A stretch of DNA of 64,000 bases from Schizochytrium sp. TIO01 (Eukaryota > Sar > Bigyra > Thraustochytrida > Thraustochytriidae): assembly GCA_004764695.1 (NCBI GenBank), contig SMSO01000014.1:1687148-1751147 (forward strand). Reading direction: 5' to 3'. Below are positions 5,934 to 46,514 of the stretch, in pieces (positions within the stretch are counted from its first letter, which is position 1; every line of letters begins with the position of its first letter). The notes beneath the pieces are model-generated. The model was given only the letters and a program-made list of their open reading frames with translations. It was not told the DNA's origin and did no database searches. A program made the translations under genes and the position numbers.

Positions 5934-8900
5934 ATGAAGCGCAATGGAAAGCGACAAGCTCCTGGCGAAGCCCCTGGTCGGGTGGCTGAGGAGCACAAGA
6001 CTGAAGAGGTTGAGGTTGATGGAGCTCAAGAAGCTGCGGACTTTGTGACTGCGCTCAACGATGATGACACTCAAGTGGTGTACGATGGCCTCTTAAGGTT
6101 TGTGCAAGCTTCTCGAGGCGTACAGGCGGAGGATACTAAAAGTGCTGTCAATCAGTACTTAAATTTGTCTCCAGAGTCTTCGGAAATCTTCCAGTGGTGG
6201 GAGGACATCAGAACAGGTCGAGCGAAACCCCAAAAGGGATCCGAAGGTAGCTTCACAGCGGCACTTTTGGATGCACTTGCAACGATTCTATTCATGGCCC
6301 ACCCTGAGAAATTTGCGGCATCAAGAACGAGTCTCGTGCAGAATCTTCTGCACCTCACAAACGTCCTCAATAGCTTCTTGGCCTCCATTCGTGATCAAAA
6401 GCTTTTGAGATGTTTCCTAAAGCTCCTTGTGGCAATGGTAAACAATGGACCAGGGGTGGCAAGAGAGCTCTATGCCCGTATTCCTTTTGAGGAGCAAAAC
6501 ATGCTGCGTCTTGCTGACAAAGGAGACATTGGCACCGGAAAAGGTAAAACACGCGATGGAAAAACTCGCTATGGATCCACGCGCCACCGATTCCTTCAAC
6601 TCACAGCCGCACTCCTGCAGCATGGTGATGTTACGTTAAAAAAGAAGATTCTTGATCCCAAGGGAGTTGCCATGGCTGCCTTACGGCGTGTTAAGGAAGA
6701 CCCCAATGAAATGCTGGCATACTTTTTTGACGTTCTCAATGAATTTGTTCTTCAAGACCCTGCAATTGGCCGCAAAACTAAAATCAACCTCTTTGCTCAG
6801 CCCATCGTGTTGGAGACGATGTTGCTTCCGCTGTATCAATCTGATGACGCTAGTATCCGTGAAATCGTGCACAAATTCCTCAAGGCTGCTTTTGTTACCC
6901 CAGAGACAAGCATCTTCCCCTCTAAATCGGACCTACCTAGCGAAGATGCCGTTCGGGTTGAGGACTCTGCATTCTACAAACGCGTCGAGGAACAACTTGG
7001 CAGGCGCAATCGCACTATATCCTTTATTGCCCGTAATTTGAATGTGGTCGATGACAAGCTTCAACGTGAACTTGTCTTGGAGCTTCTTCAACTTGATGAT
7101 ACCCTCATGCAAGCTTTTCTCAACTCAACCTGGGGTAAATTGTCTCTTGACCCTCGTCCATCCTTTAACTGGGTCAGGAATATCGTCTTTGTGCGAAACC
7201 TTTTGGCCTTTACACCACCGCGTTTGCAATCTGTCGTACCCAATTTGGCGGCAGTTAAAGTTGATCAGCTGAGCGATGCGGTACTCTCCTGCGCCCTGCC
7301 CGGTGCTCATGCTCTTCCCAAGCCGCTCCTCAGCAAAGGCGTGCAACACTTCAGTAGTCTCGTTGTGATTAATTCTCTTGACCTCCTTAGCCAACTTCTC
7401 GAACGTCTCCATGCAGTGTACAGCGATGCTGCCACACTTCCGAACGTGAACATGGAGCAACTTCAGGAAACGGTTGCTCTCAAACTTGTTCAGCGTATTC
7501 CTGATGTCAACGTGATCCTGCACCTTACGATTGGCACTAGCATGGAAGACACAAAGCAAAAGGATACTCACACCTGGCAACCCAAAGAAGCGGACTGGGT
7601 ACGACTTAAGGCCGCTCGAGCCCTTGTTTGGTACGGCAAAGTTGCTCCTCAACTTCTGTTAGGTAAACTATCTGTCGAAAAATTGATTCCCATTTACTCA
7701 GAGGATCCGTCAAGTGTGTCTTTGGCTGCTCATGTATCCATCGCCAAAATGTTGGAAGCCGTGGGCACGTCTACAGTGGCGTGGACCAAAGCCGAGGCGA
7801 TTTTTCGTGTCTGGCAGCTTCGTCCGTTCTGTCTACACCATACCGCTGCAATCGACTCTGTCCTCGAGGCTATCTTTACAAGCGTAGTGTCGACGTCGTC
7901 ATTTACGTCCAGCCGTGGAACTACTGAGCGGGCACATGCAAACGCATGGGCTAGGGCGACTTACACTCGCGATGATGCCAACTATGTCGCCTCAGTCATA
8001 ACTGCAACTGTTGCAAAGAAGCCCTTTCCAAGTTGTGATGATGTTCTTCGAGTTGCTTTTGAGCAAATTGAGGCTCGATCGACTCCCAAGGAAGCACAAG
8101 TCGTACTTCACCGCGTTATAATGGAACTCATCCATTCTATGGCTGACCTTTCCACCTTTGTTCCTGTCCTTGCAGAGATTGGTCTTGTCCAGAAACTTTC
8201 TTCGGGTAAATCAATCATGAACTACATCAACCTTGTGCTAGGAACTAGCCTTGAAGACACAATTGCCATGGAAGGCTCTATTCCGGCTCATTTTGTTTTA
8301 GAGGCCTTAAATTGGGATCTCCACGCAGCTACAGGAAAGCCCTCTTCTATTCCTCCAATGCGCGTGGCTCGTAGCATTATTGGCCAGGCCCTACAATCTG
8401 GCTTTGATGCCAAAGGTAAACGCACAGAACTTTTTTCTGATGAACAGGTCGGTGTTGTTCGAACTGAGCTCTTCAAGATAATTGAAGATCTTTCAACATC
8501 AGAGGTGTGGCAAATTGCCTTGCTCGTTTCTCGTGCTTTAGGCACCTTTTTAAAGGGAGCAACATCACACCAAGCAAGCGCGAACCCTGCCGTAGGTCTT
8601 TGTATGGACCTTCTGGATATGTGTGTAGAGCAGGATCCTGAATGCATTGTAGAAAGCCTTAGTGGGCACTCTCAGCTACGAGATATGAAATCCCTACCTG
8701 CAGATGTGCAGTTGCGTGTAGCTCAACTATTTGATGTTGCACGATCCGCAAAGTCTCTCTTTACTGCCTTCATCGGAACCTTTACTAATTGGGTGGGGAT
8801 GTTTGTAGCAAACCCCACTGAGGATGTCGCTGCTTGCTTGTTGTTGAGTAGAAACTGTTTTGTCAATGAGCATGTGAAAGATCCATCGTCGGAACTTCTA

Positions 8901-11900
8901 GACCAGATTGCTTCTGTACACGTGGACTCTGATAACGAGCAGCCCTTAGCCCGGGCACTCGTCCTGTACGCTCTCACACATGGACCGGCTGATGCGCGTA
9001 CTCTCTCTCGCTTGTTAGCTACTGCGGCAAACGAACCAGAAGAAGATGTCGATAGTGCATTCGCTGCCTGTTGCGAAGGTATTGTCCTAAAACATACACT
9101 GTCCCCGCGTGAGTGCTTCGCTGGAAACTTTCTTAACCAACCGCAAACTATTGAGGCTCTCTCGGTACTGTGGACTAAACCTAGTGCTGCCCGTATTCAC
9201 GCTTTGAATCTTCTTGCGGGTCAACCTGGAATTGCCGAAGCTGCCTTGCAATATATCGCCGAGGCAAAGGACGTAAGCCCCTACGCAGAGTTTCTGGCAT
9301 TTTGTCCGCGCAGTATTCTGGATAAATATAGCTCACCAGGACTGTGGAAACGTCTTCTCTCTCACAAATTTAAACTTTCTGGCGACTTGCATTCAATTCA
9401 GTCTTTGCTAGTGGCACAAACCTTGGCACCTGGCATTTCATCTAAACTTGCAATTGAAATCTTCACGCGCTGTCTTGAAGGCAACCCAACATTGGAGGTC
9501 TTTCAACTGATTGCAAACTTGCTCATCGCTTCTGATACACCTACCATATCATTGTTTGATCGTTTTGCTGGTCGGATTGCCGGTGAGTGTTTTCTTATGG
9601 CTATTGAAGCATCATCTGCAGATGTTGTATCCTCAGCCCTTGAAGTCGTGCACCAAATTGCACAGGCAGCACAAGGTCGTGCGCAAGGTCGTGTGGATGC
9701 AGGTCTTCTGACCCAGCTTTTTGAGAAGGAACAGGTCCATGCGGGTGCCGCAAAAGCAGCGTTGGCGTTGCTTGACTCAGGTCTTGCCTTTGCTGCAGAG
9801 CATCAGGTTAGCAGTCTGCTTTCTAGGAGCGATCTCCACGGAACGCCCAGTTTAGAACGTTTGTGGCTTGCCTATTCCAAACGTCTCCCCAACGTAGCAT
9901 GCGCTTCATCACATTTCAACAAACTCGTCCAGTCCTATACAGGTACAATGTCTGAGGCGGATTGTATTAGGCGTTACCTTATCCAGCTCTATGAAGAGGA
10001 GCGCGCTGGATCGTTGAAGTCCATGGCATTTGCAATAGGTGAAAAGGCATCATCATTCACAGGTTCTCTAGAGGTAAGCTGTGATCAATCAGTAGATGTG
10101 AATGACCCCGTTGTATTACGGTCGTTTGTGCTTGGGCAATTTGAGTGGATTTTCTCAGAACTTGATTTCTCACTCTCAGAGTCATCCAAATTCCCCATTT
10201 TCCGTGCCTTGAAGCCAGCAGATGAGTTACCTTTTACCATGAAACTTGCGAAAACTGCTGCTACATTATATGTGGAAGAGACCAGCGCCGAGGAGGTAGA
10301 AGAAACTTCTGTAAAACGCAACCGGGCCACGTCTGGGCGTCAAACTGAACGCGCCAAGAAGCGCGTCAAAACCGGAAACAAAGGATACGAGGAGCTTTTC
10401 TCTAGTGATGACGACAGCAGCTCTGATGAAGGGGATAGCGAGAACGAGAACAACGACGAACTCATGGAAGAAGACGAAGATGAGGGTCAAGAGTCCGAGG
10501 AAGAGATGGACTTGAAATCAACGAAGGCGAACGTTTTACAACAAGAGCTCGAAAGTCTGGCCCAGCAGGAAAAGTTTTCTGAGGCACTTGATCCGAGTTA
10601 TGCGATGAATCTACTTGACCTCTATTTCACTTCCCATGCTATTCTCGCAGACTTGCCACCCCTTACAGAGGAAATTCTAGCGGAGCAAACCGAAAAGGAA
10701 AACATGGAGGAGCACGAAGACGAAGATGCTCCCGAGCATAATGATAGAGACGAGGAAGGAGGCGAGGAGGGAAAAGAGGAAGAAGATGGCGAGGAAGCGC
10801 CCCCTGCAGACGACCAGGAGAAGCTTGGGGACAAGTTGACAAATGTTTTTTCAGCGAGAAAGGTTCTGGATTCCAAAATGATATCTTATTGCATCTGGGC
10901 CTTGAGCTCACTATGTGTCGAGGTTCGTCGCAAAGCAGCTACCTGCTTACAGAGGTTTGGACAACTTGTATTGCTGGATCGTCTTTTCCGTGACAAGTTA
11001 CAAGTCCTCTTAGTGCTTCGCTTTGTTCGCAATGCTCTGGTCGATGGTCCAGAAACCCGCATTTCAGGAATTCATTGCAATTTCTTGTGCCAAGCCCTCG
11101 AGATTGTTACAAAACCATCCCACACCTTATTTAAGGTCACTTATCGCTTCCTCCTGCGTCAACCTGCTCTTCGGCTAGATGACGTGCCCATGTTTTACCA
11201 GACTTTCTCCAGTGGAACCCCTACGTACCGAGGTGATCGTTTGTGGCTTATCCGGACAGTCGAACAAGGTACCCGAACATGGTTTGACGTTGATGTTCTT
11301 GTAAAGAGACACGCCCTTGGTCTTTTTATGTCCTTCATCGCTTCCCCGATGGGTGACGCGTACATGTACAAGCAGGTCCTCGATGTACTTGTCAAGGTAA
11401 CTCGGTCAGGTTCTACTGCAGTACGTCAGCTTCTCAAGGTTGGAGGTTTGACGTGGACTCTTGAAATGCTGGCTCAGGTCTCTGTCCGTCCTGAGATTTC
11501 ACCGGTGTCTGTAGTTGACCTCTGTGAAATTCTATTTCATTCTGCTCAAGCAACAGTTTCTCGTGTGAATCAGTTAAATCTCACTCGGGCCGAAAACAAA
11601 GATGAAGTTCTAGTAGGTATGGTTGATGCCGAGTTGATGGGCGCAGCAGTCTGGCTTTTGCAAATAGCGCCAGGCCTGCTTAAGGATTTCAAGCATGAGC
11701 GCAAGCTTGCCTTTCGCCATATTCTTAATGCTCTGGTAATGTGGAGCGGTGTTGAGGGTGGCTTGGATGCGATGGAATCAGAGTCGAGCTCTACAGCACA
11801 GGTACTGGAGATGCAGCACGGAATGCTTCAACTGCCGTGGGGTGACCTTGCTACCTTCATTGCTGAGTATGGTGATTTGATCACAGGAAATGTGCCATTT

Positions 11901-12263
11901 ACTGTAGGAGTGCTCCTTATTATCCTTCGTAACCGTTCCTCATTGATCAAACATGAGAATACTGCTGCTGCTATGCCTGTGCTTCTGCGATGGATGCTGG
12001 ATGTCTTGTTGCATGTTCAGCCTGACATCTCTGCTCATTATGCTTGGATTCTTTCCAAGTGTGTCTTAGCCCTTGCAAACTGGTTTGGTACTTTTAGTGA
12101 GGTTTACCCAACTTTTGTCAAACCGAATTCTGAGTTGGAAGCGCGCTTTCATGCGCTTTGGGTGATGGACTATTTTCAAGATTCTGCGCAGAATGTATCC
12201 GTACAGCACGCTATCCGTGAAAACATGCTTCAAGCAAGGCTTACACTTGCAGAGTATATTTAA
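5934..12263 (+). CDS. URB1: URB1/Npa1 nucleolar pre-ribosome factor
   Basis: This 2109-residue protein is a homologue of URB1 (yeast Urb1/Npa1, human NOL254). The family acts in the nucleolus in early pre-60S particles, with the Dbp6-Npa2-Rsa3 group, to help fold 25S/28S rRNA. The length matches the family (yeast about 1760, human about 2270). The N-terminal ~400 residues carry the Npa1 helical repeats, including LPLYQSDDASIREIVHKF followed by VTPETSIF. A strongly acidic Ser/Glu/Asp section lies at about 1484-1530 and again at about 1590-1627. The conserved C-terminal domain follows from about 1645, with LRFVRNALVDG, the stretch around YRFLLRQPALRLDDVPMFY, and RLWLIRTVEQGTRTW. There are no membrane segments. 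The gene is one open frame starting at the first ATG; it converges on IRE1. Confidence 0.92.
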   Translation: MKRNGKRQAPGEAPGRVAEEHKTEEVEVDGAQEAADFVTALNDDDTQVVYDGLLRFVQASRGVQAEDTKSAVNQYLNLSPESSEIFQWWEDIRTGRAKPQKGSEGSFTAALLDALATILFMAHPEKFAASRTSLVQNLLHLTNVLNSFLASIRDQKLLRCFLKLLVAMVNNGPGVARELYARIPFEEQNMLRLADKGDIGTGKGKTRDGKTRYGSTRHRFLQLTAALLQHGDVTLKKKILDPKGVAMAALRRVKEDPNEMLAYFFDVLNEFVLQDPAIGRKTKINLFAQPIVLETMLLPLYQSDDASIREIVHKFLKAAFVTPETSIFPSKSDLPSEDAVRVEDSAFYKRVEEQLGRRNRTISFIARNLNVVDDKLQRELVLELLQLDDTLMQAFLNSTWGKLSLDPRPSFNWVRNIVFVRNLLAFTPPRLQSVVPNLAAVKVDQLSDAVLSCALPGAHALPKPLLSKGVQHFSSLVVINSLDLLSQLLERLHAVYSDAATLPNVNMEQLQETVALKLVQRIPDVNVILHLTIGTSMEDTKQKDTHTWQPKEADWVRLKAARALVWYGKVAPQLLLGKLSVEKLIPIYSEDPSSVSLAAHVSIAKMLEAVGTSTVAWTKAEAIFRVWQLRPFCLHHTAAIDSVLEAIFTSVVSTSSFTSSRGTTERAHANAWARATYTRDDANYVASVITATVAKKPFPSCDDVLRVAFEQIEARSTPKEAQVVLHRVIMELIHSMADLSTFVPVLAEIGLVQKLSSGKSIMNYINLVLGTSLEDTIAMEGSIPAHFVLEALNWDLHAATGKPSSIPPMRVARSIIGQALQSGFDAKGKRTELFSDEQVGVVRTELFKIIEDLSTSEVWQIALLVSRALGTFLKGATSHQASANPAVGLCMDLLDMCVEQDPECIVESLSGHSQLRDMKSLPADVQLRVAQLFDVARSAKSLFTAFIGTFTNWVGMFVANPTEDVAACLLLSRNCFVNEHVKDPSSELLDQIASVHVDSDNEQPLARALVLYALTHGPADARTLSRLLATAANEPEEDVDSAFAACCEGIVLKHTLSPRECFAGNFLNQPQTIEALSVLWTKPSAARIHALNLLAGQPGIAEAALQYIAEAKDVSPYAEFLAFCPRSILDKYSSPGLWKRLLSHKFKLSGDLHSIQSLLVAQTLAPGISSKLAIEIFTRCLEGNPTLEVFQLIANLLIASDTPTISLFDRFAGRIAGECFLMAIEASSADVVSSALEVVHQIAQAAQGRAQGRVDAGLLTQLFEKEQVHAGAAKAALALLDSGLAFAAEHQVSSLLSRSDLHGTPSLERLWLAYSKRLPNVACASSHFNKLVQSYTGTMSEADCIRRYLIQLYEEERAGSLKSMAFAIGEKASSFTGSLEVSCDQSVDVNDPVVLRSFVLGQFEWIFSELDFSLSESSKFPIFRALKPADELPFTMKLAKTAATLYVEETSAEEVEETSVKRNRATSGRQTERAKKRVKTGNKGYEELFSSDDDSSSDEGDSENENNDELMEEDEDEGQESEEEMDLKSTKANVLQQELESLAQQEKFSEALDPSYAMNLLDLYFTSHAILADLPPLTEEILAEQTEKENMEEHEDEDAPEHNDRDEEGGEEGKEEEDGEEAPPADDQEKLGDKLTNVFSARKVLDSKMISYCIWALSSLCVEVRRKAATCLQRFGQLVLLDRLFRDKLQVLLVLRFVRNALVDGPETRISGIHCNFLCQALEIVTKPSHTLFKVTYRFLLRQPALRLDDVPMFYQTFSSGTPTYRGDRLWLIRTVEQGTRTWFDVDVLVKRHALGLFMSFIASPMGDAYMYKQVLDVLVKVTRSGSTAVRQLLKVGGLTWTLEMLAQVSVRPEISPVSVVDLCEILFHSAQATVSRVNQLNLTRAENKDEVLVGMVDAELMGAAVWLLQIAPGLLKDFKHERKLAFRHILNALVMWSGVEGGLDAMESESSSTAQVLEMQHGMLQLPWGDLATFIAEYGDLITGNVPFTVGVLLIILRNRSSLIKHENTAAAMPVLLRWMLDVLLHVQPDISAHYAWILSKCVLALANWFGTFSEVYPTFVKPNSELEARFHALWVMDYFQDSAQNVSVQHAIRENMLQARLTLAEYI

Positions 12264-12822: not shown

Positions 12823-15800
12823 TTACGAAAGATCAAGTTTCGGCCGCAACTCATCATTGCCATGAGCATAAAAGCAACGATCGCCCATGCGGCAATGCTC
12901 CCCCATCGAGTTTTCCCAATTCTTGCATAAAACAGTTTTATAATGTGGGTCAAGCTTCGGATCACCAGAATAGCGAGATTTTTTCTTGCTAGATTTTCTT
13001 CCCGAGGGAGGTTGTGGTGGAGTGCTCGAGCCACCCAGCGAGGCTGTGTGAGGAGATGAAGATAAGGGAGGCTTCGATGTTCCTCCACCTCGCCAATTGT
13101 CACTTGGGGTTCGAATTCCAGTACCAAAGGGTGATACCCCAGCAGTAGCCTTGTTTGGAGAAGATGACAGACGAACTGGAGAGGCCGAGCGCATGGGCGA
13201 GCTTTCCCTTCCTCCGGGTTGGGCTGTTCGTTCGCGATTGAATAAATGAGCTGGTGCAATTTGTGGCGGAGCAATACTAGCTTCACTGCTGGTTAATGGT
13301 GCATGAAGCGCCTGGTGTATTCCAGATGGTGCCTCTGAAGTAGTATTTGCGAACGCTTCAAATCCGGGTGGTGGCTGGACAGAAGGACGGAGCACCGAAT
13401 GATTTTGCCCTAAAGTTAGATGAGACGTTGCACCGAGAGCGGGTGATGGTGCGCGGAGAGGTTCGAGCATTGGTGACGAGGTTGTCGATGAAAGAGATTG
13501 GGATGCTTTGTTACTCTGTGAAGCAAGTGGAGGCAAACCTTCTTGGTCTAAGGAATCCATCACGCATTGCGATCGTACCTTAAAAGGGCGAGAATCCTCT
13601 AACATATCTTGGGACAAGCTCTGCGTCTTCTTCTGTGGTGAGGATGTTCCATGCGACATACTCGATGAAGAACTGACAGTACTATTGATTGACTGTTGCG
13701 ATTTCAGATGATCCTTCACTTCAGTACTTGAACTGCGCATAGTAAATGCCTTGGCTTCTTCTGCTCGGGACGCAGCTTCAGGCCCATGTTTTGCAACCGT
13801 GAAAGCACCAAGGATTTCCGCAAACTCAGGTTCGTGCGCACAATGCTCAAGTACTAGGCGGTGACAGACTATAAGTAAACGAGGGAAGCGGTTAGATCCA
13901 ATGAACTCATCCAAGAACCGCTCAGGTAAAGGAGACAAGAGATCTCGAACTTTCGGGCTTGATTCACGAATGTGAGAATACTTGTTCCGCATATAACGTA
14001 GTAGGTCTCGTAAAGAGTGCGTCGTGTAGTAACGACGCTTACTTTCCACAACATCGGTCCGGAGGTCCGGATGCAAACGCTGCAACCATCCTTGCGAACC
14101 GAAAACCTCTTTTGCTTGTTCCTCAAACTTTTCATGTAATGTAGACTCGGGAACGGAAAACGGTCGGGGTTCTCCGCTAACACGATCCTCAATACGGTCC
14201 AACTCGAGACGATCACTCACATGCTTCAAGAAGTCCATTTTCCGTGCAGCACTCCAAAGCAAAGGATGTTCCATACATTCCTCAATATTTGGACGTGATT
14301 GTGGGTTGTGGCGAACCATTTGGCCAATAAGATCCTGGGCCTCGGGATAATTGCGGATGCGATCGAGATTGACTGGATTGTTTTCCATTATATTCTTTTC
14401 GCGTTCGAATGCATCTCCAAAAGGATGAAACCCGTTGCTTACTACGTAAAAAAAGACACATCCCATAGAGAAAACGTCCACCTTGCGGCCACATCGGATA
14501 GCGACATCGCGTTCCAGCTCTGTTGCACCTTTGCTTCGCAGTGAGGACAAAAGTTCCGGAGCACGCCACCCAACTGTCCCAGATCCATGCATGCTTGTAC
14601 CACCATAGATTGAACTTGTAGTCCCAGAAAACTTGCGACCGAGACCCATATCAGAAAGTTTTGCCTCATAGAACTCTCCTAGACCTGCGAGATAAGAACT
14701 TCCACCACTTGAAGTACTACGAGTAAGTTCTGTAGACGGCTCTGCACCACCAGATGGGTTAATGGGATCCCACACACCATCTTCTACTTCTCTTTTGGCT
14801 TCCGAGATATTGCGTGTCTCGATGACTAAGATATTCTGTGGTTTGATATCACAATGCACAATACAGAGGGTGTGGAGGTGTTTGGTTGCATCGGCGAGAG
14901 ACTGTAGGAAGGTGATTGTAGATTCAGGGAGACGGACATTCTTCTTGGCACTCTTGTTCACAAGCTCTCTGCGGCCGCGATTCAGATCCTTTAGATGAGA
15001 TACGGCCGTCTCCAAGGTATAATCACACAGTTCAAGCGCCAAGTAAATGAACTCGCGAGTCTCTTCCTGCGTGAAGTAACGAACAACATTCGAGTGGCCA
15101 TCCGAGCGAATCAATAGGTCAATTTCCTTCTTTGCCAGCTTGAACTGACTAGCCACGACCTTTTTCACAGCAACTGGGCGGTCCCTGAGCTTGCCCTTCA
15201 GCACCGTAGTACCATGGCAGCCACGACCCAAGACAGAAGTACTGTGCACAGTAATCTGTCCGACGCGCTCTGTTTCAGTAATAGGGTCGTATTCTACCTC
15301 TAGTTCATTGCCGCCTCGTCTCTTATATTTGTTAGAGCGCCAAAAGAACCCTGCAGTGAGGAAAATGACCAGGAGAATTAACGCCATGATAACGGCTTGT
15401 AGGTTGCGAATTTGACCTCCATCCTGCGGTCCAGGTGAAAAGTTTGAGAAGGGAATTGAGGATGCATCAAAGTGTTCGTTATCAAATGGGCTTGGAAGTT
15501 GCTCTTCAGCCTCCGGCCCAGGAAGTCCATGAGAAGGTAAATGAGCTGGAAGACCCGGCCACCGGGTTTGGGGTTGTTTTCGACGCCTTGAGCCAGGGTC
15601 ATCAAGTTCCGAGGCAGAGCCATCATCGAGCAAAAGGTGCTGGTTTGTCACATGGTATGGGCCTTGCAACGGGAAATCTTGATCTATATGTGTACATTGC
15701 TCTTGATCCGCAGGGACGCCAACTCCATAATTGCGACGGAAGTCAATATCTTCAGGAAAAACCTCCGAGCTACAGCGAATATCGCGTCCTGGCCTATTCG

Positions 15801-17022
15801 TCGTGGCATAAACTTGAACGTGACCATTCTTGAACTTGATACGCTGGAGATAGATTGGTTTTGCATCTGGGAGGTTTCCAATCACTTGTTGACCTTCATT
15901 GGCTAAAGACATCTCGGAGACAAAACGCCAGTTTTTTTCATTGGAACGGCTCACGCCAAAGACAGCTGTAACAGGAACACCTTCCCAAGTGGCCCGTCCT
16001 GCAACGGCTGTGTCGATTTCCAATGTATTGGAATCAAGACGAGGCACATTTCGATCACGTGACAGGAATTGGCCATAGGTAAAGTTCCATACCTCAAGAC
16101 CAGACGCTGCATTGAAAGCACGAACATGATAGTCCACACGACCTATCGTAATGGGGCTAGAATCTGGAAAAGGCAGTTCCTTCTTACCAAACTCTGGTGG
16201 AGGTTGGTTTGATCCAACATCTTCCCATCGCCCATTGAGCAAAGAGCCTGTGTCCGATGTGAACACTCGCAAACGGCGGCCCGTGTTGGGGTCTAGCTCA
16301 AAGTACGAGGTCTTGCGCTGACCAACGACACGGATTTCATCTTCTTCATCCCCAAGAGTATCTGTCAAAGGACAGCTGTTTACGAGATCCGGAATCGATA
16401 GATGATGCAGAGACAAATCTGCTTCTTCTGAGAATAAGTACAAGAGGCCATCATCACCAGGAACAACACCTCCTTTAAATGAGGGAGCTTGGAACGACTT
16501 AATAGTAGGTCCTCCCACCTCATCTGAGCTCCAAAGTTTTTCGCCATCTTCCACGCGTACACCATGGATACTTCCATCCACAGTACCAAGAATCATTACC
16601 TCTGGCGATTCAGGAGTTCCAAACACAACCACATTGGAGGATGATTCGTCGTCGTCGTTGTTTCCTCCATCTACAGAAGACCTTCGGTCCTGTCTATGAG
16701 CTGCCATCATGCTATTCCTGAGCTCCACAAAGTTATCTCGATCATCTATTTGGCCGAAACGAGGTTCATCATCGTCCACAATATCTACATCATCTATAGA
16801 GATATCTTGGCGTATTGTTGTAGGCCTCTCACTTGATGAGGTAGCACTAGCGCGCGAGGATCTTCCTCTCGCAGCAGCAGCAGCAGCAGCAGCAGCTTGC
16901 CGTCTTTGTCCTGGAGTGGCCTGAATGAGTGAGGTTTGTGTGTCAGCAATGGCCAAAAAGACCAGAAACAACCATACCCGCACAACGATGTCGCTTCGCA
17001 TTTTCAGTCGCCCTTTACGCAC
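12823..17022 (-). CDS. IRE1: IRE1 ER-stress sensor kinase/RNase with C-terminal CCCH zinc finger
   Basis: IRE1 senses unfolded protein in the ER lumen and, after oligomerising, cleaves RNA on the cytosolic side. The 1399 residues read in order: a signal peptide (hydrophobic core about 12-28); a poly-Ala run; a lumenal PQQ-like domain (VMILGTVDGSIHGVRVEDG); one membrane helix at about 543-561; a kinase domain with VAVKK (Lys620), HCDIKPQN (His723-Asn730) and SDMG (Asp791); and a KEN RNase domain with Tyr999, Arg1012, Asn1013 and His1017, which align with human Tyr892, Arg905, Asn906 and His910. Canonical IRE1 ends here. This one runs on for about 270 low-complexity Ser/Pro-rich residues into a CCCH finger: Cys1366-x10-Cys1377-x5-Cys1383-x3-His1387, preceded by YKTVL and followed by GNDELR as in TTP-type fingers. 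The kinase has Cys for Arg in HRD and about 40 extra residues before DMG. The frame is continuous, so the finger is part of the same ORF. Confidence 0.96.
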   Translation of the reverse strand: MRKGRLKMRSDIVVRVWLFLVFLAIADTQTSLIQATPGQRRQAAAAAAAAARGRSSRASATSSSERPTTIRQDISIDDVDIVDDDEPRFGQIDDRDNFVELRNSMMAAHRQDRRSSVDGGNNDDDESSSNVVVFGTPESPEVMILGTVDGSIHGVRVEDGEKLWSSDEVGGPTIKSFQAPSFKGGVVPGDDGLLYLFSEEADLSLHHLSIPDLVNSCPLTDTLGDEEDEIRVVGQRKTSYFELDPNTGRRLRVFTSDTGSLLNGRWEDVGSNQPPPEFGKKELPFPDSSPITIGRVDYHVRAFNAASGLEVWNFTYGQFLSRDRNVPRLDSNTLEIDTAVAGRATWEGVPVTAVFGVSRSNEKNWRFVSEMSLANEGQQVIGNLPDAKPIYLQRIKFKNGHVQVYATTNRPGRDIRCSSEVFPEDIDFRRNYGVGVPADQEQCTHIDQDFPLQGPYHVTNQHLLLDDGSASELDDPGSRRRKQPQTRWPGLPAHLPSHGLPGPEAEEQLPSPFDNEHFDASSIPFSNFSPGPQDGGQIRNLQAVIMALILLVIFLTAGFFWRSNKYKRRGGNELEVEYDPITETERVGQITVHSTSVLGRGCHGTTVLKGKLRDRPVAVKKVVASQFKLAKKEIDLLIRSDGHSNVVRYFTQEETREFIYLALELCDYTLETAVSHLKDLNRGRRELVNKSAKKNVRLPESTITFLQSLADATKHLHTLCIVHCDIKPQNILVIETRNISEAKREVEDGVWDPINPSGGAEPSTELTRSTSSGGSSYLAGLGEFYEAKLSDMGLGRKFSGTTSSIYGGTSMHGSGTVGWRAPELLSSLRSKGATELERDVAIRCGRKVDVFSMGCVFFYVVSNGFHPFGDAFEREKNIMENNPVNLDRIRNYPEAQDLIGQMVRHNPQSRPNIEECMEHPLLWSAARKMDFLKHVSDRLELDRIEDRVSGEPRPFSVPESTLHEKFEEQAKEVFGSQGWLQRLHPDLRTDVVESKRRYYTTHSLRDLLRYMRNKYSHIRESSPKVRDLLSPLPERFLDEFIGSNRFPRLLIVCHRLVLEHCAHEPEFAEILGAFTVAKHGPEAASRAEEAKAFTMRSSSTEVKDHLKSQQSINSTVSSSSSMSHGTSSPQKKTQSLSQDMLEDSRPFKVRSQCVMDSLDQEGLPPLASQSNKASQSLSSTTSSPMLEPLRAPSPALGATSHLTLGQNHSVLRPSVQPPPGFEAFANTTSEAPSGIHQALHAPLTSSEASIAPPQIAPAHLFNRERTAQPGGRESSPMRSASPVRLSSSPNKATAGVSPFGTGIRTPSDNWRGGGTSKPPLSSSPHTASLGGSSTPPQPPSGRKSSKKKSRYSGDPKLDPHYKTVLCKNWENSMGEHCRMGDRCFYAHGNDELRPKLDLS
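16871..16896 (-). repeat. (GCA)n microsatellite coding poly-Ala in IRE1
   Basis: A run of about eight GCA/GCT-type triplets just after the signal peptide of IRE1 is read as Ala on the minus strand. In frame expansion or contraction would change the length of the alanine run at the start of the lumenal region. Confidence 0.9.
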
Positions 17023-20008: not shown

Positions 20009-22268
20009 ATGGCAGGTAAAACAAAGAAACTTTCACTAACAAGGTCATGGTCACTAGCCCAATTGCTTGCTGTAGCTTGTGCTTTTGTGGTACATCCAGT
20101 GCATGCCATTGACTTTAAATATGGGAAACAAATACAACATGAACAACCAACACTCTGCTGGCACAGGAAATGTGGAAGTGGATGTAACATGGTCTTCAGT
20201 GCCGCTGTTGTCAGAGTCAACAACTTCATATGTGCCCCTTCCCTCAGGCTGCGAATGCCTTGATTTGGCTCAAACAAACAAGACATGTACGGCGTTCCAG
20301 TGTCATGAAACATGTAACTTGAACATTGGTCAGTGTGATGAGTTCTGCTGCAGTGATCCAGATTGTACCTCAGACGACATCGCCCGGTTTCAATCTGTAG
20401 GAGAATGTTTACCTGATGGTAGTTCCACAGATTCAACCCTGTGCACAGATACAACATCACTTGATCAAGTCAACGAGAAATACAATTTATATGTAGAGTC
20501 AGATGACCGAGCACTGAATGGCTTCCTTTGTGTTTCTGTTGTGAATAATCCTATTGAAGGTGAGTATTTCAACCCTCAGACAAGCCTTGTAAACAACTAT
20601 GCCGTGCTAGACTCATCCGATTATACACCAGACTATTCGTTTGCAATTAGCGAGGCATCTGATGCCGAGTCTGGTGAGTCTGCGTACTTGCCAGGTGATA
20701 ATATTATTGCTGCATGGGGCTCAGAGTCTTTACGTGCGATTTGGGGAGGTTTGCTCAGCTTGCCGACGGCAGGGCCAGATGGAACATGCATAGACAACAA
20801 TTACGTCGAGTACGGCACAGATGTTCAGGTGAATGACTGCACCCAAGTAATTATTGACCTTGCAGCCACTTGTCAAGAAGAGTATGGCCCGCTTTCTGCC
20901 ACTCTCTTTGGCGAGCTCCTCCACATAGGCCTTATCCCTTCTGCAACCGTCAGCACGCCTTCATCAAACTGGCAAAAAGTTACTGTTGAAAATCTTTACA
21001 GTAAGTCCTTGAGTAATGGAGCCATTACATCGTTGCAGGAAGCAACATCTGCACCAACTGTATCTCCGACAGCAGCACCCACGCTAGCGACTGGTTCACC
21101 TACTGTAACAACGACTGGTTCTCCAACTTCAGTGAACTCAACAGGTACTCCTACAGATGCACCTACCCCTCAACCAACTGCTGCCCGGCGCCAGCTCCAG
21201 GTTGCTACTGTTCCTACAACAACTTGGGATGCTAGTACACAAACTTGTCAAAATGCTGTGGTGGGCGTAGAGTATACAATTGAGCACAATTCAATCGGTG
21301 AGATCAGTGATTTTCAAGTAGATTTGACATTAGCGAATATCCCATTAGGAGCTTTGGATAGTGTTGCTGTCACTCAAAGCTACCACGTCAACTTTATCAA
21401 TACGGAATCAAACAGCGTCTCCACTGCACCAGAGCGTGTTGTGTCAGGGAACCCTGGCTATATTAAAGGTCTTCCTGTTCAAGCAGGTAGCATCACAACA
21501 CAGGATTCTGGCACCGACGATGAAAAAACAGCGATTGCTTATCTGCCAGATGGGCTAGCCATTATGAGTGCTGCAGGCTCTCGAGGCGACTGTTTTGACC
21601 TAACTGGGTCTTCTAATAAGTGGTACGACGTTATTAGCAACACTTCGGTCATGGAAACACCAGTCTTATTCGGTGTCGACGCAGTATCAACGTGTACAGT
21701 GTCTCTCACCTACAGTGACTTTCAGGATATGACATCGTGGTGTGTAGATCGCCGTAGCGCGCCAATTTTCACCATGGGTGCTGATCGTATTGGGATCTAT
21801 GGAAATGCCAATCCTTGGAGTGCGTGGGAATGGGTTACTTTACACAGGGAAACGTCCCAGCTTTCATCTACTGCGCAGTCTTCTGTTCCAGGAACGTTGA
21901 CCTGTGCGAACATGATCGACCGCGTCAGCATTGAAATCCTTTGGACAAATTCAGGAGAACTAGGAAACCCTCAACCAATGATTCTCACGGCGCGCGCATA
22001 TGTGGACCAGTCAGATTGGCAATGGCGAAAGACTGCCAACAGCAATGCCACGCAGAAATTTACTATTCAGCACACGGTAACCTTTGTGGAGCATAAGCTC
22101 TCTGCAGAAGACCGCTTTGCTTACAAGCCAGAGGTGCCCCCAATCATTCCTGCGATCCCTGCAGATGTATTTTACCCCTTCGATATTGTGTCTGCGGCTC
22201 CCCGTCAAAACCAATTTACATTGGCGGCAGTCTTGCTTTTTGTCTTTGCTTTTGCCCAGGTTTTTTAA
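20009..22268 (+). CDS. TCTN: Tectonic family ciliary transition-zone protein, apparent +1 frameshift
   Basis: Tectonics are secretory-route proteins of the ciliary transition zone (MKS/B9 complex). Family features are a Cys-rich stretch (CECLDL, then IGQCDEFCCSDPDC), NNPIEGEYFNPQT, the hallmark SGNPGYIKGLPVQAG near 21446-21490, and DVFYPF near the C-terminus. A Thr/Pro-rich linker at about 21040-21185 splits the Cys-rich part from the rest. The long frame alone lacks an ATG and a signal peptide. A good signal peptide (MAGKTKKLSLTRSWSLAQ, then a hydrophobic core ending VHA) begins at ATG 20009 in another frame. One surplus base between about 20100 and 20160, for example in GGG at 20123-20125, would join the two into about 752 residues. 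The protein ends in a bare hydrophobic tail with small residues before it (SAAPRQ), like a GPI-attachment signal. Which tectonic paralogue it matches is not resolved. Confidence 0.88.
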
Positions 22269-32744: not shown

Positions 32745-33959
32745 ATGGCATCTCCAAACCCCAACACGCCTTTGGTGTTGCTTTACTATTGCTATGTCAA
32801 GGTTGAGGATCCTGAAAAGCTTGCAAAGCAACAGGAAAATTTGTGTGAGCGACTAGATCTCAAGGGACGCGTGCGAGTGGCTGGAGAAGGTTTGAACGGG
32901 ACCCTGGCAGGAGACCCTGCAGCTTTAGATGCATACAAGCAGGAGACAGAGAATGTTTTGGGGTGTTTTGATATTGATTGGAAAACATCCCCTGTTGCAA
33001 TTCAGGAGGTATCGTCAAATGACGATGGCGAGGATACCAAGGGGGTCTTTCCTGATCTCCTCATCAAGGTTGTGGACAATCTTGTAGGGGCAAGTGGTAC
33101 TCGCATGGGCCAGAATGACTACGCAATAGACCGCACAGGCGTTCATCTAAGTCCATCAGAATTTCATGCAACTATTGCAGAGACGAAACCCGAGGATCTA
33201 GTCTTGATTGATGTTCGCAACCAATACGAGTATGAGGTTGGTCATTTCAAGGGTGCAGTAAACCCATCCACGCGCAAATTCAGTGACTTTGAAGATTGGT
33301 TTAAAAGTCAAGGCGTTTCGCTTGTTCAAGGTAAGCAAAAGGTCCTTATGTATTGTACGGGGGGTATTCGTTGTGAGACTGCAAGTATGATGGTAAGGGA
33401 GGTCCTTAATCAACATGGTAAAACCCAGCTGCAAGTTGATGCATCTGACAATGAAGAGGTTTTGGCACAAGAAGTCAAAAAGACCGATGCCCTTCCTGCT
33501 GTATATCAACTGAAAGGCGGTATTCATCGGTACCTAGAGGCCTACCCGGAGGGTTTTTTTGGGGGTCGAAACTTTGTTTTTGATGGGCGTGTCCTCCAAC
33601 CCACCATGCACGGTGCACCTGTGGGCAAATGTACTTACTGTGAATGTACGTGGGATAGTCACTCAGATGATCGCCGCTGCCAAAAATGTCGAATGTTGGT
33701 ATTAGTTTGTGATGATTGCGCATCTCATCCTGGTGGAATGTGGTGTGCGCACCACGAGCTACTGGACCCGCGCAAGACATCACAAGAGGCTCTTGGAAAA
33801 CGTCGCAGGGCACTAGAAGAACGTTTAGCCTCACTTATGGGACGGACACAGTCTCGTCAGCGCCGTAAGGTGCGGTCGCAAATCGAGGAGTTAGATGAGG
33901 CAAAGCGTCGATTAAGCCAAAAGGCAGAAATCGGTTTAGAAACAGTGAACTCAACCTAA
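32745..33959 (+). CDS. Rhodanese-domain protein, TrhO/TSTD2 family
   Basis: The 404-residue protein matches the bacterial TrhO (YceA/UPF0176) and animal TSTD2 family. TrhO hydroxylates uridine-34 of some tRNAs; the eukaryotic members are less studied, so the substrate here is inferred only. The N-terminal domain (about 10-110) has LVLLYYCYVKVEDPEKL and GRVRVAGEGLNGTLAG, the family signature. The rhodanese domain (about 135-260) has VLIDVRNQYEYEVGHFKGA and the catalytic loop CTGGIR with Cys204, followed by CE as in TrhO, and ends with LKGGIHRYLE. The C-terminal part is Cys-rich (pairs from Cys296, including CQKC and CDDC), probably a zinc site as in TSTD2, then a basic helical tail. The frame starts at the first ATG. 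Its stop codon lies inside the 3' end of the convergent gene. Confidence 0.92.
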   Translation: MASPNPNTPLVLLYYCYVKVEDPEKLAKQQENLCERLDLKGRVRVAGEGLNGTLAGDPAALDAYKQETENVLGCFDIDWKTSPVAIQEVSSNDDGEDTKGVFPDLLIKVVDNLVGASGTRMGQNDYAIDRTGVHLSPSEFHATIAETKPEDLVLIDVRNQYEYEVGHFKGAVNPSTRKFSDFEDWFKSQGVSLVQGKQKVLMYCTGGIRCETASMMVREVLNQHGKTQLQVDASDNEEVLAQEVKKTDALPAVYQLKGGIHRYLEAYPEGFFGGRNFVFDGRVLQPTMHGAPVGKCTYCECTWDSHSDDRRCQKCRMLVLVCDDCASHPGGMWCAHHELLDPRKTSQEALGKRRRALEERLASLMGRTQSRQRRKVRSQIEELDEAKRRLSQKAEIGLETVNST

Positions 33960-36440
33960 CGTTTTTAACAGTTCTTCTTCTTCCAAGCCGATTTCCTCCA
34001 GACGAGACTTAAGCTTTGCAATTTTCTGCTCCAAAGCTTGACATTCTACATCAGTAGTAGTTGGATCAAATGTAAAAGTGGCAGCGTGGCTGCATTCTGC
34101 AACTGTTTGTGTCTCAATCGCTCTTGACACGATTGCGTTTGGGATTGGGGATGTTCCACACTCAACCAAATCCGCTGGAGTTGTTTTGCAGTGGTCACTG
34201 TGATTGCCCTCCACAGAGCTCTCAATCTCAACTTCGAGGTGATCGTAGAATGCGTCAGTTCCTGTTTCACGCTGCTCTTGTGACGGAAAGGCTGGAGATG
34301 ATGCAATATCTGCAAATTCGACCTTGTTTGTTTCAGTTGCCGCATCATTCACATCTACGGCAGTAACATTGATAAGTGGTAAAGTGGATGCTTCTACTTT
34401 ATTACCTTCTGAAGATTCCTTTTGGCCCAAAGATATACGTAACGAACAATTTAATTCTGCGTCTTCAAGTGAATCCTGCTCATTAAGTCTCGACTGCTCA
34501 TTATTGCTCCTTAATGCACAATTGTAATCTGCGTTCAAATTGATGTCAGTTTCGTTGTTTTCTTCGTCGCTGCTGAGAGTAAGTTCGTCGTTTTCACGAT
34601 GTGGCTGTGGTTGAATTGTCTCTTTTATAATCTGCTCTGTTGGTGGGGTCTTTGCATCTTGTTCCATTTCTGGGCTTGAACATTCTTGGCCAAGAGATTG
34701 GGTAGACTCATTCTCTAATTTTCCACTTATAGGACTTTTCTCCTCCGAAACTTTCACTTCCTCCAGTTGTTCATCCTGTTGCTGATGAAATTGTTGTTCT
34801 TGTTGATTATGATGTATTCCCTCTAAAGTGTCTTTGTCACCAAGTTGTTCACCCTGTTGCTGATGTAGTTGTTGTTGCATTTCCTCCAAAGAATTTTCAT
34901 CCCCAAGTTGTCCATCCTGTTGCTGATGAAATTGTTGTTCTTGTTGATTATGAGGTATTCCCTCCAAAGCATTTTCGTCACCAAGTTGTTCATCCTGTTG
35001 CTGATGTAATTGCTGTTCTTGTTGATTATGATGTTTTCCCTTCAAAGTGTTTTCGTCCCCAAGTTGTTCATCCTGTTGCTGATGTAATTGTTGTTGTTTC
35101 CCCTCCAAGGAGTCTCCATCCTCAAGCTGTCCATCCTGTTGCTGATGTAGTTGTTGTATGTGCTCTCTTGGATCAACTGAATCTGACTCACTGGAAACAT
35201 TTGGACAGACCAGTATATCAGATTGGCCACTTTCTATATGGGATAAAGCAGGGGACTGTTCACTGTTGCTGATATGAACAAAAGAACCTACCGCGGGCTC
35301 AACTGTTTCCAAGGATATTGAATTTTGCTGTTCCACCACCTTGTCTATCGAAGAGTCCCGCATTCCTGGACTATTATCTGGTTGCTGCATTTGGTGATCT
35401 GGTGTTGCAGTAAAATCATTGCCAAGGTCCAGAGGAGTCAAGAGACGTGGTGGCGGTACTTGGCGAGTATGAACCTGAATAAATTCATGAGTATACTTTT
35501 CGTAAGATGACGGCGGGGCAGAATCATAGTTGTTGGCATGCGTGATAGTTTGCTGAAATTGAGTAACCCGATGACTACGGGAGAATGCTGGCGCTGGCAG
35601 CGATGGTGGCGATGGTGGTGGAGAGGGAGGGGGTGTGTGTGAGCTCGACTTTGTTGTGAATAGAGGTGGTGGTGGAGGAGGTGGTGGTGGTGCATCAAAA
35701 CTTTGGTCAAGAAATTGAAGTCCTTCCAGTTCAACAGAAGACTCAGAATAAGCCATACTTCCAGAAGTTCGTCGTGAACTGTTGGATATAAAACTTGAGG
35801 CAAGAGCCAAATCATCCTCACTTTCGCTCAAGTTGTCATCCTCTAAGAAGTTCTTACGTGCAGGAGGAGGACTTGAACGTCTGCTCTGTCCAAGCGGTGG
35901 CAGAGATTTCTCACTTCCTGGCGACTGCACCCAAGAGGCAGCCATACCAAATTTGTTACTCACATTATCTTGTGACTGAGGTTTGGGGTCTTCGAAGAGG
36001 TCTTTGTGTCTCGCCAAGATTTCATCGGCACGACGATTTAACTCCTGAACGTCAAAGATTTCATCAACCCCATCCATTTCAAAATCATTGCCATCATTCA
36101 AAACCTGAGATTCTTCGTCGATTAGAGTATCTCGTTGTAATAAACTGTTTGCTCTGTGGTCATCAAATTTGGGCAAATTTGGTGTTGCTTGAGAGGCTGA
36201 GGAAGGTCGATCGTTACTTTCTTCTTCACGATTTTTCCACCAAAAAAGTTTACTATTGTCTGTCTGGGCTCGTCTTTGCTCTGGGCTTCTCGGCGGAGCT
36301 CTTCGAAACCTTTCAATAAATGTAGCAATTGTACTTCCATTCTTCGAAGACTTATCTGAGCCGTTTGTGTCGTCGGGATCCTTCGCGCTGTCGCTGTTTC
36401 TATCGACCGCAACGGTGATGTTCTTTGCACGATGTCTCAT
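33951..36440 (-). CDS. Hypothetical Gln-rich tandem-repeat protein with poly-Pro and coiled-coil end
   Basis: I do not recognise a family for this 829-residue protein. It is polar throughout, with no signal peptide or membrane helix. A Pro-rich part at about 249-290 has nine prolines in a row followed by PPPSPPPSPP, of the kind bound by profilin or SH3/WW domains. At about 427-562 there are six tandem copies of a Gln-rich unit (core LHQQQDEQLGDEN). The last ~35 residues (ECQALEQKIAKLKSRLEE...) form a heptad-rich helix, likely a short coiled coil. The long uninterrupted frame, sensible codon use and sharp C-terminal helix support a real gene. The minus-strand TGA at 33951-33953 lies within the last codons of the convergent rhodanese gene. 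It could be a scaffold or cytoskeletal adaptor, but this is a guess. Confidence 0.75.
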   Translation of the reverse strand: MRHRAKNITVAVDRNSDSAKDPDDTNGSDKSSKNGSTIATFIERFRRAPPRSPEQRRAQTDNSKLFWWKNREEESNDRPSSASQATPNLPKFDDHRANSLLQRDTLIDEESQVLNDGNDFEMDGVDEIFDVQELNRRADEILARHKDLFEDPKPQSQDNVSNKFGMAASWVQSPGSEKSLPPLGQSRRSSPPPARKNFLEDDNLSESEDDLALASSFISNSSRRTSGSMAYSESSVELEGLQFLDQSFDAPPPPPPPPPLFTTKSSSHTPPPSPPPSPPSLPAPAFSRSHRVTQFQQTITHANNYDSAPPSSYEKYTHEFIQVHTRQVPPPRLLTPLDLGNDFTATPDHQMQQPDNSPGMRDSSIDKVVEQQNSISLETVEPAVGSFVHISNSEQSPALSHIESGQSDILVCPNVSSESDSVDPREHIQQLHQQQDGQLEDGDSLEGKQQQLHQQQDEQLGDENTLKGKHHNQQEQQLHQQQDEQLGDENALEGIPHNQQEQQFHQQQDGQLGDENSLEEMQQQLHQQQGEQLGDKDTLEGIHHNQQEQQFHQQQDEQLEEVKVSEEKSPISGKLENESTQSLGQECSSPEMEQDAKTPPTEQIIKETIQPQPHRENDELTLSSDEENNETDINLNADYNCALRSNNEQSRLNEQDSLEDAELNCSLRISLGQKESSEGNKVEASTLPLINVTAVDVNDAATETNKVEFADIASSPAFPSQEQRETGTDAFYDHLEVEIESSVEGNHSDHCKTTPADLVECGTSPIPNAIVSRAIETQTVAECSHAATFTFDPTTTDVECQALEQKIAKLKSRLEEIGLEEEELLKTLG
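34758..35160 (-). repeat. Six tandem coding repeats of 63 or 78 bp
   Basis: Within the Gln-rich protein, six consecutive units share the core LHQQQDxQLxDxxxLE. Units are about 21 or 26 residues long; the longer ones add an HNQQE-type segment. The order of complete units appears to be 21, 26, 26, 21, 26, with a last degenerate unit. The units are close in DNA as well as protein, indicating recent unequal exchange or slippage. Confidence 0.88.
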
Positions 36441-40970: not shown

Positions 40971-42505
40971 TTGTCACACGCTATAAGTATACAACAACAC
41001 TAATTTTAGTTTTTGCCAAAGACCAGAAAGTGATCTATCGAAGAAACTCTCTAATGTCACAATCGCCTTTACGGATCTGAGGTCGATATGTTCGTGCTAG
41101 TATATCGATGGTCCTCTCTCTGCGTCTGCGCAGCTCCTCCTCGTACTATATATATAGTTCCTAATGCTCTCTTGAGGTAAATAGTTGTTTTGTAATTGGC
41201 CAGCTATAAATGACGCAGCAAAACCCACACAAAAACAAGAGCAGAAAGCAAAACAGGAAGGGGCACAGGAATCGGAAGTGCAGTGCGGAGATTCAATCTG
41301 GTCGATTTGCTATCCCTTTGCTTTCGTGCGATCCGATTTGGCGTCAGTTGTTATGAGGCTGCTTGGCGGCTCTTGAACTCTTTCCTTATTTATTCGAGTT
41401 GTTTTGCGTCGTTTGTTTTAAAATTTGAAGAGAAAAATTGCTCGCCGCGCGTCCGAGTCAAGGCAAGAAAGCGAGCGAAAGCCCCCAAGCTGCTGCTTCG
41501 CTATTGCGCTCTGGCGCACCGATCAGGCTGGCAGATGGGTGGTGCTAGATCCCCGTGTCTGCGTCAGCTTAGGCAATAGGTGGCAGCCGAAGAGCGTAGA
41601 TCAAACTCCCTGATGAGTTAGTCAAATAATGCAAACGCTAGCCGTCTCGCCTTTCGAAGATGATGGCGGTCAAGACGGAGCTGAGGAGAAAGCCGAAGTA
41701 GAGAAGAAAGGAGCTCTACGCAGGCGATCTGTGCGGCCTCCGTGCGGTCGTTTGAGGTTTCCCTGTCAGCTGGGCGGCCTGGCAGCCGGGTTCGCTGCCC
41801 GCTTCGAAGACTCGCTGGTTGGCGTCAGGAATGGATCGCGAGTTTGATTTTTGTTTCTTTGTTTCTTTGTCTGTCTGACTTTCTGTTTGTTTCTTTCTTT
41901 GTTTATTTCTTTCCTTTTCTTTTCTTTTCGCAATCACACCTTCCAAAATCAACAATTCATTTCATCTCCCTTTCTCTACTATCATCCACACTACCTGACC
42001 ACATTTTAAAAATTAAAATAATTTGTTTAATTAATTAAAAATAAAGTACGAAAAAACAAAAACAAAAACTAATTTTAGTAGTACAGCAGCATCCATAACT
42101 TATCCCAATCGCAAGTGACGATGGAGAACTAACCATCACAGGCAGAGCGAGGTTCTAAGGGCCTCCGCTTCGAACCATGAGCAGATAAAGTAGAAAGGAA
42201 GGAGGACGCGTACAATGGCACTGTTAATTCGTTGTTGACGACGAATGCACCTTCACATTACTACTGCCTATTCTTGAGAGGGGCTCCCTCTTGCTTTTCT
42301 TCTTTCCTCCTGGACTGCTGCCTTTGCTTCCTCTTCGCCTTTTTCTTCGGAAACCATTTACAAAACGCAGTATATTCTGTCTCCTATCGATGACTATTTC
42401 TACTCTAGTCATTAAAACAAAAACAAAGAATAGAATCACAGTCGGTAATAAAAGATGTCACCTTCTTCTCCTTTTTCCGTCTCTTTTTCCTTCCCTTGGT
42501 TAACA

Positions 42506-42530
42506 ATAAAATAAAATAAAATAAAATAAA
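42506..42530 (+). repeat. (AAAAT)n microsatellite
   Basis: About five perfect copies of a five-base AAAAT/ATAAA unit. Confidence 0.9.
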
Positions 42531-43260
42531 CTTTAAAAAGAAACAAAAAAACTGATCGATCGAGCCCTTCAACAATTTTCAGTCAAGCTCCGCTCCTCGT
42601 TTCCTTTTATCAGCAATGCGCTGACCCCAAATGCAGGAAGACAGCTAGCTATCTATGTATCAAGCTCGCCACCGAAGCTGGCAGGCGAGAGAGAGACTGC
42701 CTACTGCCTACTGCAGATGAAAGGACGAAAGGATCGGCCAAAGTCCTTTCTTTCCTACGTTGGTGATAATTGTGTCCACCAGAGCAGGAAAGGAAACCGC
42801 GGGGGTTTGGCCATGCGCGCTTTCTTGTATTCGCCCACGCCCGGTTCTCACTCGCACGAAAACCTCAATTTTAAAAATAAAAAAAAGCTCTAAGGCTGCT
42901 TAATAAGCGCCTACCTACCAGTTTCAAGAGTGTTTCCATAACAAAACAAAAAAAGGTTGATTGCTTTAGTTTTCTTCTAACTTTACTTATAGGCTATATA
43001 CAGTAGGCAGTAATTACAGTTTGCCAAACACTGCATAACCAATTGATGAGACGATCGACGATGAACGAAGAGCGTGATGAAATTGCGTATACTTTATTTA
43101 TTCTTGAAATTTGCATAAGTCAGCTATCACCAATGTAGACAAATACAACCCAAGCCGGGGCTGGCTCGCTCACAGTCTACATCTTAACGAAGGAAGGCCG
43201 ATAAAGACGCTCGTGCTGCGATAATGATGATCGTGACGATGATGCCCAAGACTGATAAAT

Positions 43261-43301
43261 AGTTAGTTAGTTATTTAGTTAGTTATTTAGTTAGTTAGTT
43301 G
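43261..43301 (+). repeat. (AGTT)n / AGTTATTT compound repeat
   Basis: AGTT units interrupted twice by ATTT in a regular pattern, giving a higher-order 12-base period. Confidence 0.88.
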
Positions 43302-45430: not shown

Positions 45431-45456
45431 AAATAATAATAATAATAATAATAATA
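45431..45456 (+). repeat. (AAT)n microsatellite
   Basis: About eight AAT/ATA triplets in a row within an A-rich stretch. Confidence 0.88.
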
Positions 45457-45612
45457 AAAATTAAAATGATCTCCTGTCGAAAACGAGAAACTATCGACTC
45501 CAATCGTGCCTAGTTGCGACTACCGAACTGCTACCAGCTCTCTCTGCCTACCACACTAATCATCTCCAGCATCTCACCCATAATAACACCATAATTTTCT
45601 TTTCTGTAAGTG

Positions 45613-45653
45613 GAAAAGAAAGAAAGAAAGAAAAAAGAAAGAAAGAAAGAGAG
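45613..45653 (+). repeat. (GAAA)n microsatellite
   Basis: A purine-only run of GAAA units interrupted once by extra A bases; directly followed by a GC-rich patch with CTCAG repeats at about 45668-45685. Confidence 0.88.
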
Positions 45654-45826
45654 ACTCCTTCGTTTGCTCAGCTCAGCTCAGCTCGCTCGGCGCGGCACCT
45701 CGGCTCAGCGGCGGCTCGGGCCTCGTGACGGCAGCGGCGACGCTCTCTCTGTCTCTCTGTCTGTCTTTCTGAGGCCCTGGCAGGCGGCCTGAGGCCTTCG
45801 TCGTCTCCAGCGGCCTTCTGCAACAC

Positions 45827-45861
45827 AGGCAGGCGAGCAGGCGAGCAGGCGAGCAGGCGAG
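45827..45861 (+). repeat. (GCAGGCGA)n octanucleotide minisatellite
   Basis: About four tandem copies of an eight-base unit within a GC-rich patch. It makes long overlapping frames on the minus strand that I regard as chance. Confidence 0.85.
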
Positions 45862-46513: not shown

Positions 46514-46514
46514 C

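Follow-up and report, generated by a model that had tools for sequence, protein, structure and literature searches.

Gene Structure and Domain Organization

A stretch of 64,000 nucleotides from Schizochytrium sp. TIO01 (GCA_004764695.1, contig SMSO01000014.1, positions 1,687,148 to 1,751,147 of the forward strand), hereafter the window, was analyzed around a gene in which IRE1 is joined in one reading frame to a CCCH zinc finger (IRE1-CCCH). On the minus strand, window positions 12823-17022 formed one open frame throughout. The first ATG, which is the likely start codon, lay at 17001 and the TAA stop at 12823-12825, giving a protein of 1392 amino acids. Residues were numbered from this ATG; residue n of an earlier sequence-only reading of the locus is residue n-7 here. 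That reading held that the IRE1 frame runs on past its RNase domain, and the fused frame was confirmed in the sequence: no stop preceded the finger, and the linker measured 291 residues, where about 270 had been estimated. Searched with PF06479, the complete 64 Mb genome had this gene as its sole KEN/RNase match. The features of the gene are listed in Table 1.

Table 1. Features of the IRE1-CCCH gene, in window coordinates.
Feature	Residues	Positions	Strand	Basis
IRE1-CCCH gene, single open frame	1392 in all	12823..17001	-	Open reading frame and translation
Probable signal peptide, hydrophobic run VWLFLVFLAIA	about 1-22	16936..17001	-	By eye
Lumenal part (PERK/IRE1 lumenal similarity at about residues 130-325)	about 23-535	15397..16935	-	PDB matches
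Transmembrane helix	536-554	15340..15396	-	Hydrophobic run by eye
Protein kinase domain; HCD for HRD, DMG for DFG, VAVK Lys kept	about 585-919	14245..15249	-	Pfam, PDB
KEN/RNase domain (PF06479); Tyr992, Arg1005, Asn1006, His1010; interface Asp923, His927, Tyr1008	922-1062	13816..14238	-	Pfam, alignment
Ser/Pro-rich linker, probably disordered	1063-1353 (291)	12943..13815	-	Composition
PPPGF motif, possible GYF-domain ligand (speculative)	1210-1214	13360..13374	-	Sequence
Basic patch RKSSKKKSR, before the finger	1335-1343	12973..12999	-	Sequence
Single CCCH finger C-x10-C-x5-C-x3-H, YKT lead-in, GNDELRP tail	1354-1387	12841..12942	-	Pfam, phmmer, sequence

The lumenal part had nine matches in the PDB, seven of which were PERK, IRE1 or IRE2, all weak (E 6.3e-4 to 0.047). 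A lumenal domain of the IRE1/PERK type followed by one transmembrane helix was thus found, the similarity being weak and the helix being recognized by eye. The kinase domain (Pfam E 4.9e-30) stood directly before the KEN domain, and the best PDB matches of the two domains together were named IRE1: 2rio (E 2e-70) and 4u6r (E 7.6e-58), which we take to be yeast and human IRE1. Similarity of the lumenal, kinase and RNase parts supported assignment of the protein as an IRE1 orthologue. In NCBIfam the protein had 10 weak matches, the majority to kinases and none close to the cut-off.

Two kinase motifs were altered, HRD to HCD and DFG to DMG (14833-14856 and 14638-14655, minus strand); the catalytic Asp, the Asn and the VAVK Lys were retained. 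Regulation of this kinase may differ from that of other IRE1s.

RNase Domain

Pfam matched the 2-5A/KEN RNase family with E 5e-24. In alignment with the two PDB-matched IRE1s, the four catalytic residues named by the sequence-only reading were all kept (Tyr992, Arg1005, Asn1006, and His1010); the yeast counterparts are Tyr1043, Arg1056, Asn1057, and His1061. Cleavage of RNA by this IRE1 on endoplasmic reticulum (ER) stress is predicted.

In the available excerpts of Li et al. (2021, PMC8104961), residues of the RNase interface are tied to substrate promiscuity. There, 175 of 230 IRE1s combined Asp/Glu at the position of yeast residue 992 and Lys/Arg at that of residue 1059, the S. pombe-like pattern that enables regulated IRE1-dependent decay (RIDD), and 33 of the 230 had Asp/Glu at 988, Lys/Arg at 992 and mostly Tyr at 1059, the S. 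cerevisiae-like pattern. The equivalents of yeast 988, 992 and 1059 were Asp923, His927 and Tyr1008. The RIDD-type pair was therefore absent, with His927 for Asp/Glu and Tyr1008 for Lys/Arg, and two of the three positions (Asp923 and Tyr1008) agreed with the S. cerevisiae-like pattern, while His927 stands where that pattern has Lys/Arg. This comparison, which draws on three residues in an alignment of three very distantly related sequences, suggests that the interface is nearer the S. cerevisiae-like than the RIDD type and that the RNase is selective rather than promiscuous. An interface of this kind, lacking the RIDD pair, disfavors broad decay and mildly favors a finger that docks on particular transcripts.

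Linker and CCCH Finger

The linker was rich in Ser (58/290) and Pro (33/290), a composition from which it is probably disordered. Over its length the IRE1 frame had no stop, the other two frames of the same strand had 8 and 12, and the antisense frames had 7, 11, and 19. In all, 330 codons after the RNase domain were free of stops, and only 2 of 20,000 first-order Markov sequences with the composition of the linker stayed open. A codon score was derived from 11 training open reading frames (ORFs) and judged on the same ORFs, whose 80 in-frame windows averaged +0.148 and whose 160 off-frame windows averaged -0.104; over the linker it was +0.086 for the IRE1 frame and -0.074 and -0.105 for the other same-strand frames. 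The genome has introns, as seen by eye in a GTAAGT...TTGCAG stretch full of stops upstream of an FMO ORF, and the linker contains two donor-like sites (GTRNG[TA]), one of them good (AAG|GTACGA). An in-frame intron within the linker is possible; nothing in the sequence demands one. The gene downstream, an NPA1/URB1-like gene at 5934-12263, is convergent, and since only 559 bases separate the two stop codons there is little room for a separate gene on the strand of IRE1-CCCH.

The four zinc ligands of the finger were present (Cys1359, Cys1370, Cys1376, and His1380), and its x10-x5-x3 spacing agreed with the general definition C-x4-15-C-x4-6-C-x3-H given in the accessible part of PMC2478707. Both Pfam matches were below threshold, with 13.7 bits where zf-CCCH (PF00642) requires 20.5 and 20.0 where the UNK-type CCCH family requires 31.1, and the finger was not among the 22 matches of a PF00642 search of the genome. 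In phmmer searches against the PDB the best 4 of the 16 sequences listed were 9y10 (E 1.9e-10), 6nzl (6.9e-9), 1rgo (TIS11d, 1.4e-8), and 1m9o (TTP, 1.3e-7). Judged by these scores, the similarity to RNA-binding CCCH fingers is beyond chance.

The finger had been described as TTP-type. In TTP/ZFP36 proteins the lead-in is (R/K)YKTEL; here it was HYKTVL, in which YKT and Leu are kept, His stands first and Val replaces Glu. With the tandem proteins TTP/ZFP36 and TIS11d the finger shared the YKT lead-in, the C-x5-C-x3-H second half and the AHG-x-x-ELR tail. It differed from them in being a single CCCH stretch with no tandem pair, in having x10 in place of x8, in carrying Met at one aromatic position, and in being tethered to the membrane on an RNase. 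The description thus fits the overall sequence resemblance and some of the lead-in and tail, but not the finger number, the spacing or that aromatic.

The closest relative in the genome was the first finger in a TTP-like protein with a tandem pair (C34:4162568-4162792), at 48% identity (E 2.1e-6). A query of linker plus finger found itself and, through the finger alone, this tandem gene. Six other matched places in the genome represented five distinct fingers, all with x8 spacing and with Tyr or Phe two residues past the second Cys. In the IRE1 finger Met occupied that position, and the second aromatic position was Tyr (Phe in five relatives). In TIS11d, the aromatic residues at both positions stack against bases of the RNA. 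A YKT-led finger outside the finger-query matches (L002/L003), with x7 spacing, also lacked the first aromatic. Near-twin CCCH genes were seen at C31:8854341 and C33:155626.

Comparison with Known Proteins

The protein had in common with IRE1 (ERN1/Ire1p) of yeast, human, and plants the lumenal domain, the transmembrane helix, the kinase, and the KEN RNase with its Tyr/Arg/Asn/His site, and it differed in the altered kinase motifs and in the added linker and finger. To our knowledge, the known yeast, human, and plant IRE1s end at about the KEN domain. RNase L, which is soluble and has ankyrin repeats, shares the kinase-KEN RNase arrangement; in contrast, the present protein had a lumenal part and a transmembrane helix, and no ankyrin match was found among the 12 Pfam families listed (E up to 10).

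No description of the architecture was known to the sequence-only reading, a statement weakened by a single line of Table 1 in Anantharaman et al. (2013, PMC3710099), where KEN domains are "Fused to S/T/Y-Kinase, along with ankyrin repeats, CCCH in some". As far as the available text goes, CCCH appears once in the main text of that paper, and KEN-CCCH proteins are already on record there as that one table line. The entry places KEN and CCCH in one protein, as here; in the portion available it names no species, domain order or lumenal or transmembrane part, and may or may not represent the present architecture. Beyond this line, no IRE1 with lumenal and transmembrane parts that ends in a CCCH finger was found among the matches listed in searches of the open-access literature. 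In a search of that literature for the KEN domain together with CCCH, the accessible part of PMC4061530 had CCCH only in a reference title. Among the matches listed over all the literature searches, no title dealt with IRE1 of labyrinthulomycetes or thraustochytrids.

No relative of the protein was found in viral, bacterial, and archaeal contig collections, which say nothing on eukaryotes, and a three-sequence KEN alignment had no match in the viral contigs. The alignment had one match in a bacterial contig (L075, Sansalvadorimonas verongulae, 27% identity), over residues that correspond to the kinase part and not to the RNase.

Search for a Splice Substrate and a Ligase

A bZIP set of 41 matches was assembled from the genome, with 26 to PF00170 (11 over the cut-off) and 15 to PF07716 (all over the cut-off). 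These represented 25 distinct loci, all of which were scanned over about 1.5 kb on each side, introns being ignored, for an XBP1-like pair of hairpins with 7-nucleotide C-N-G-N-N-G-N loops. Two stricter scans gave 0 pairs. The loosest yielded 6; the 20 simulated sets averaged 2.45 and went up to 8, and the 6 pairs were put down to chance. An RNAfold-based scan of the gene strand at the same loci found 0, and the 5 simulated sets likewise had none. The human XBP1 sequence, used as a control, was detected by both kinds of scan. A substrate mRNA that lies outside the scanned span or is split by introns may have escaped the search.

One of the bZIP loci (L037, C31:3581132-3581287) lay in a 501-residue frame with a hydrophobic, transmembrane-like stretch C-terminal of the zipper, and is a candidate ER-anchored stress transcription factor. 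The bZIP matches at C7:339032 and 345294 had equal scores and frame lengths to those at C11:4847 and 11146, which suggests a duplicated or haplotypic stretch on the two contigs.

An RtcB profile had 0 matches in the genome. A T4-Rnl1-type RNA ligase profile had one (L069, C4:200125-200715), in a 995-residue frame with a P-loop recognized by eye, which is perhaps a tRNA-splicing ligase. With such a match present, ligation after cleavage is possible.

Possible Role of the Finger

We consider it quite possible, if short of probable, that the finger is a flexibly tethered RNA-docking arm which, at the ER surface, selects a single mRNA or a small set of mRNAs for the IRE1 RNase. By analogy with the family, the lumenal domain would sense unfolded protein, and the kinase and RNase would cluster. 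The finger, on a tether of ~290 residues, would dock on the particular mRNA or mRNAs and so raise their local concentration at the clustered RNase. In yeast, an element in the 3' untranslated region of HAC1 mRNA delivers this transcript to clusters of Ire1, and the finger could be a built-in counterpart of that delivery. The basic patch before the finger speaks for such an arm. The suggestion that the finger holds a splicing target fits the interface slightly better than decay does, but no canonical hairpin pair was found in the spans scanned near the bZIP loci.

Several observations weigh against the docking arm. With its x10 spacing and with Met in place of one aromatic, the finger might bind RNA less strongly or in a different way. 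A structure prediction, proposed earlier as a check, was made as a single-sequence AlphaFold model of the finger; it had low confidence (mean pLDDT, the predicted local distance difference test score, 51.3; predicted template-modelling score 0.26) and was uninformative either way. His927 departs from the strict S. cerevisiae-like pattern, and no canonical XBP1-like double hairpin stood above chance within the spans scanned near the 25 bZIP loci. Speaking against coding in the linker, one antisense frame tied with the IRE1 frame at +0.086 over the whole length and reached +0.169 in the last third, where the IRE1 frame scored +0.048, just below the 5% point (+0.054) of the 80 coding windows.

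What makes an IRE1 act on a single splice target or on many decay targets is still debated; in the excerpts available of PMC8104961 and PMC8674358 the choice is attributed, in yeasts and human, to dimer alignment and oligomer state. If the docking arm is real, a naturally occurring IRE1 that carries a finger of the RNA-binding type would make substrate choice testable through one small domain, and substrate choice could be encoded by an added reader and not by the RNase alone. A broader proposal, which we regard as rather doubtful, is that a protist lineage built a substrate receptor into IRE1: the finger would recognize a short RNA element and pass the single mRNA or the few mRNAs that carry it to a selective RNase, and neither a canonical XBP1/HAC1 double hairpin nor a separate pathway for tethering mRNA would be needed.

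The best of the alternatives, itself unlikely, is selective RIDD, as the sequence-only reading had suggested, in which the finger would deliver AU-rich mRNAs bound at the ER to an RNase of the decay type. The TTP-like sequence of the finger fits this proposal, a decay-only IRE1 would be expected to leave no canonical hairpin pair near bZIP loci, and the RIDD-type interface is the one reported for 175/230 IRE1s in the excerpts of PMC8104961. The proposal is opposed by the interface itself, in which His927 and Tyr1008 replace the RIDD pair, and by the finger, which stands alone, differs in spacing and lacks one aromatic, and so corresponds poorly to the tandem UAUU reader given the roles of the residues in such fingers.

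It is improbable, next, that the tail works through protein or localization, the linker with its PPPGF motif and the finger recruiting translation-repression or decay factors or aiding clustering. The PPPPG motifs of TTP bind GYF2, and the genome had 10 GYF-domain matches; the exact string PPPGF occurred in a fraction of 0.00045 of 20,000 linker shuffles, and the general PPG-hydrophobic form in 0.04. A five-residue motif in a proline-rich linker, picked after the sequence had been seen, is nevertheless weak evidence. Least probable of all is that the finger lies outside the working IRE1, whether read from an alternative transcript, removed by a splice that escaped detection, or carried as a neutral extension of the C terminus. 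For this reading the introns of the genome, the donor-like sites, the low coding score of the linker's last third and the equally high antisense frame can be cited; against it stand the stop-free run after the RNase domain set beside 7 to 19 stops in the five other linker frames, the rarity of open simulated linkers, the intact zinc ligands and flanking motifs, and the scant space before the convergent neighbor.

Other Observations in the Window and the Genome

Window positions 40971-60054, about 19 kb, had no ATG-initiated ORF of at least 200 amino acids and had short tandem repeats near 49.8 kb; the stretch is either a gene desert or intron-rich. An ORF of 829 amino acids at 33951-36440 (minus strand) had no Pfam match at E 0.001. 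A Tectonic-domain protein, of a ciliary family, was encoded at 20103-22268 (plus strand), consistent with a flagellated life stage. Elsewhere in the genome, 10 of the 27 acyl-carrier-protein matches fell in one frame of 2172 amino acids (C4:611495-614707), which we take to resemble the thraustochytrid polyunsaturated fatty acid synthase.

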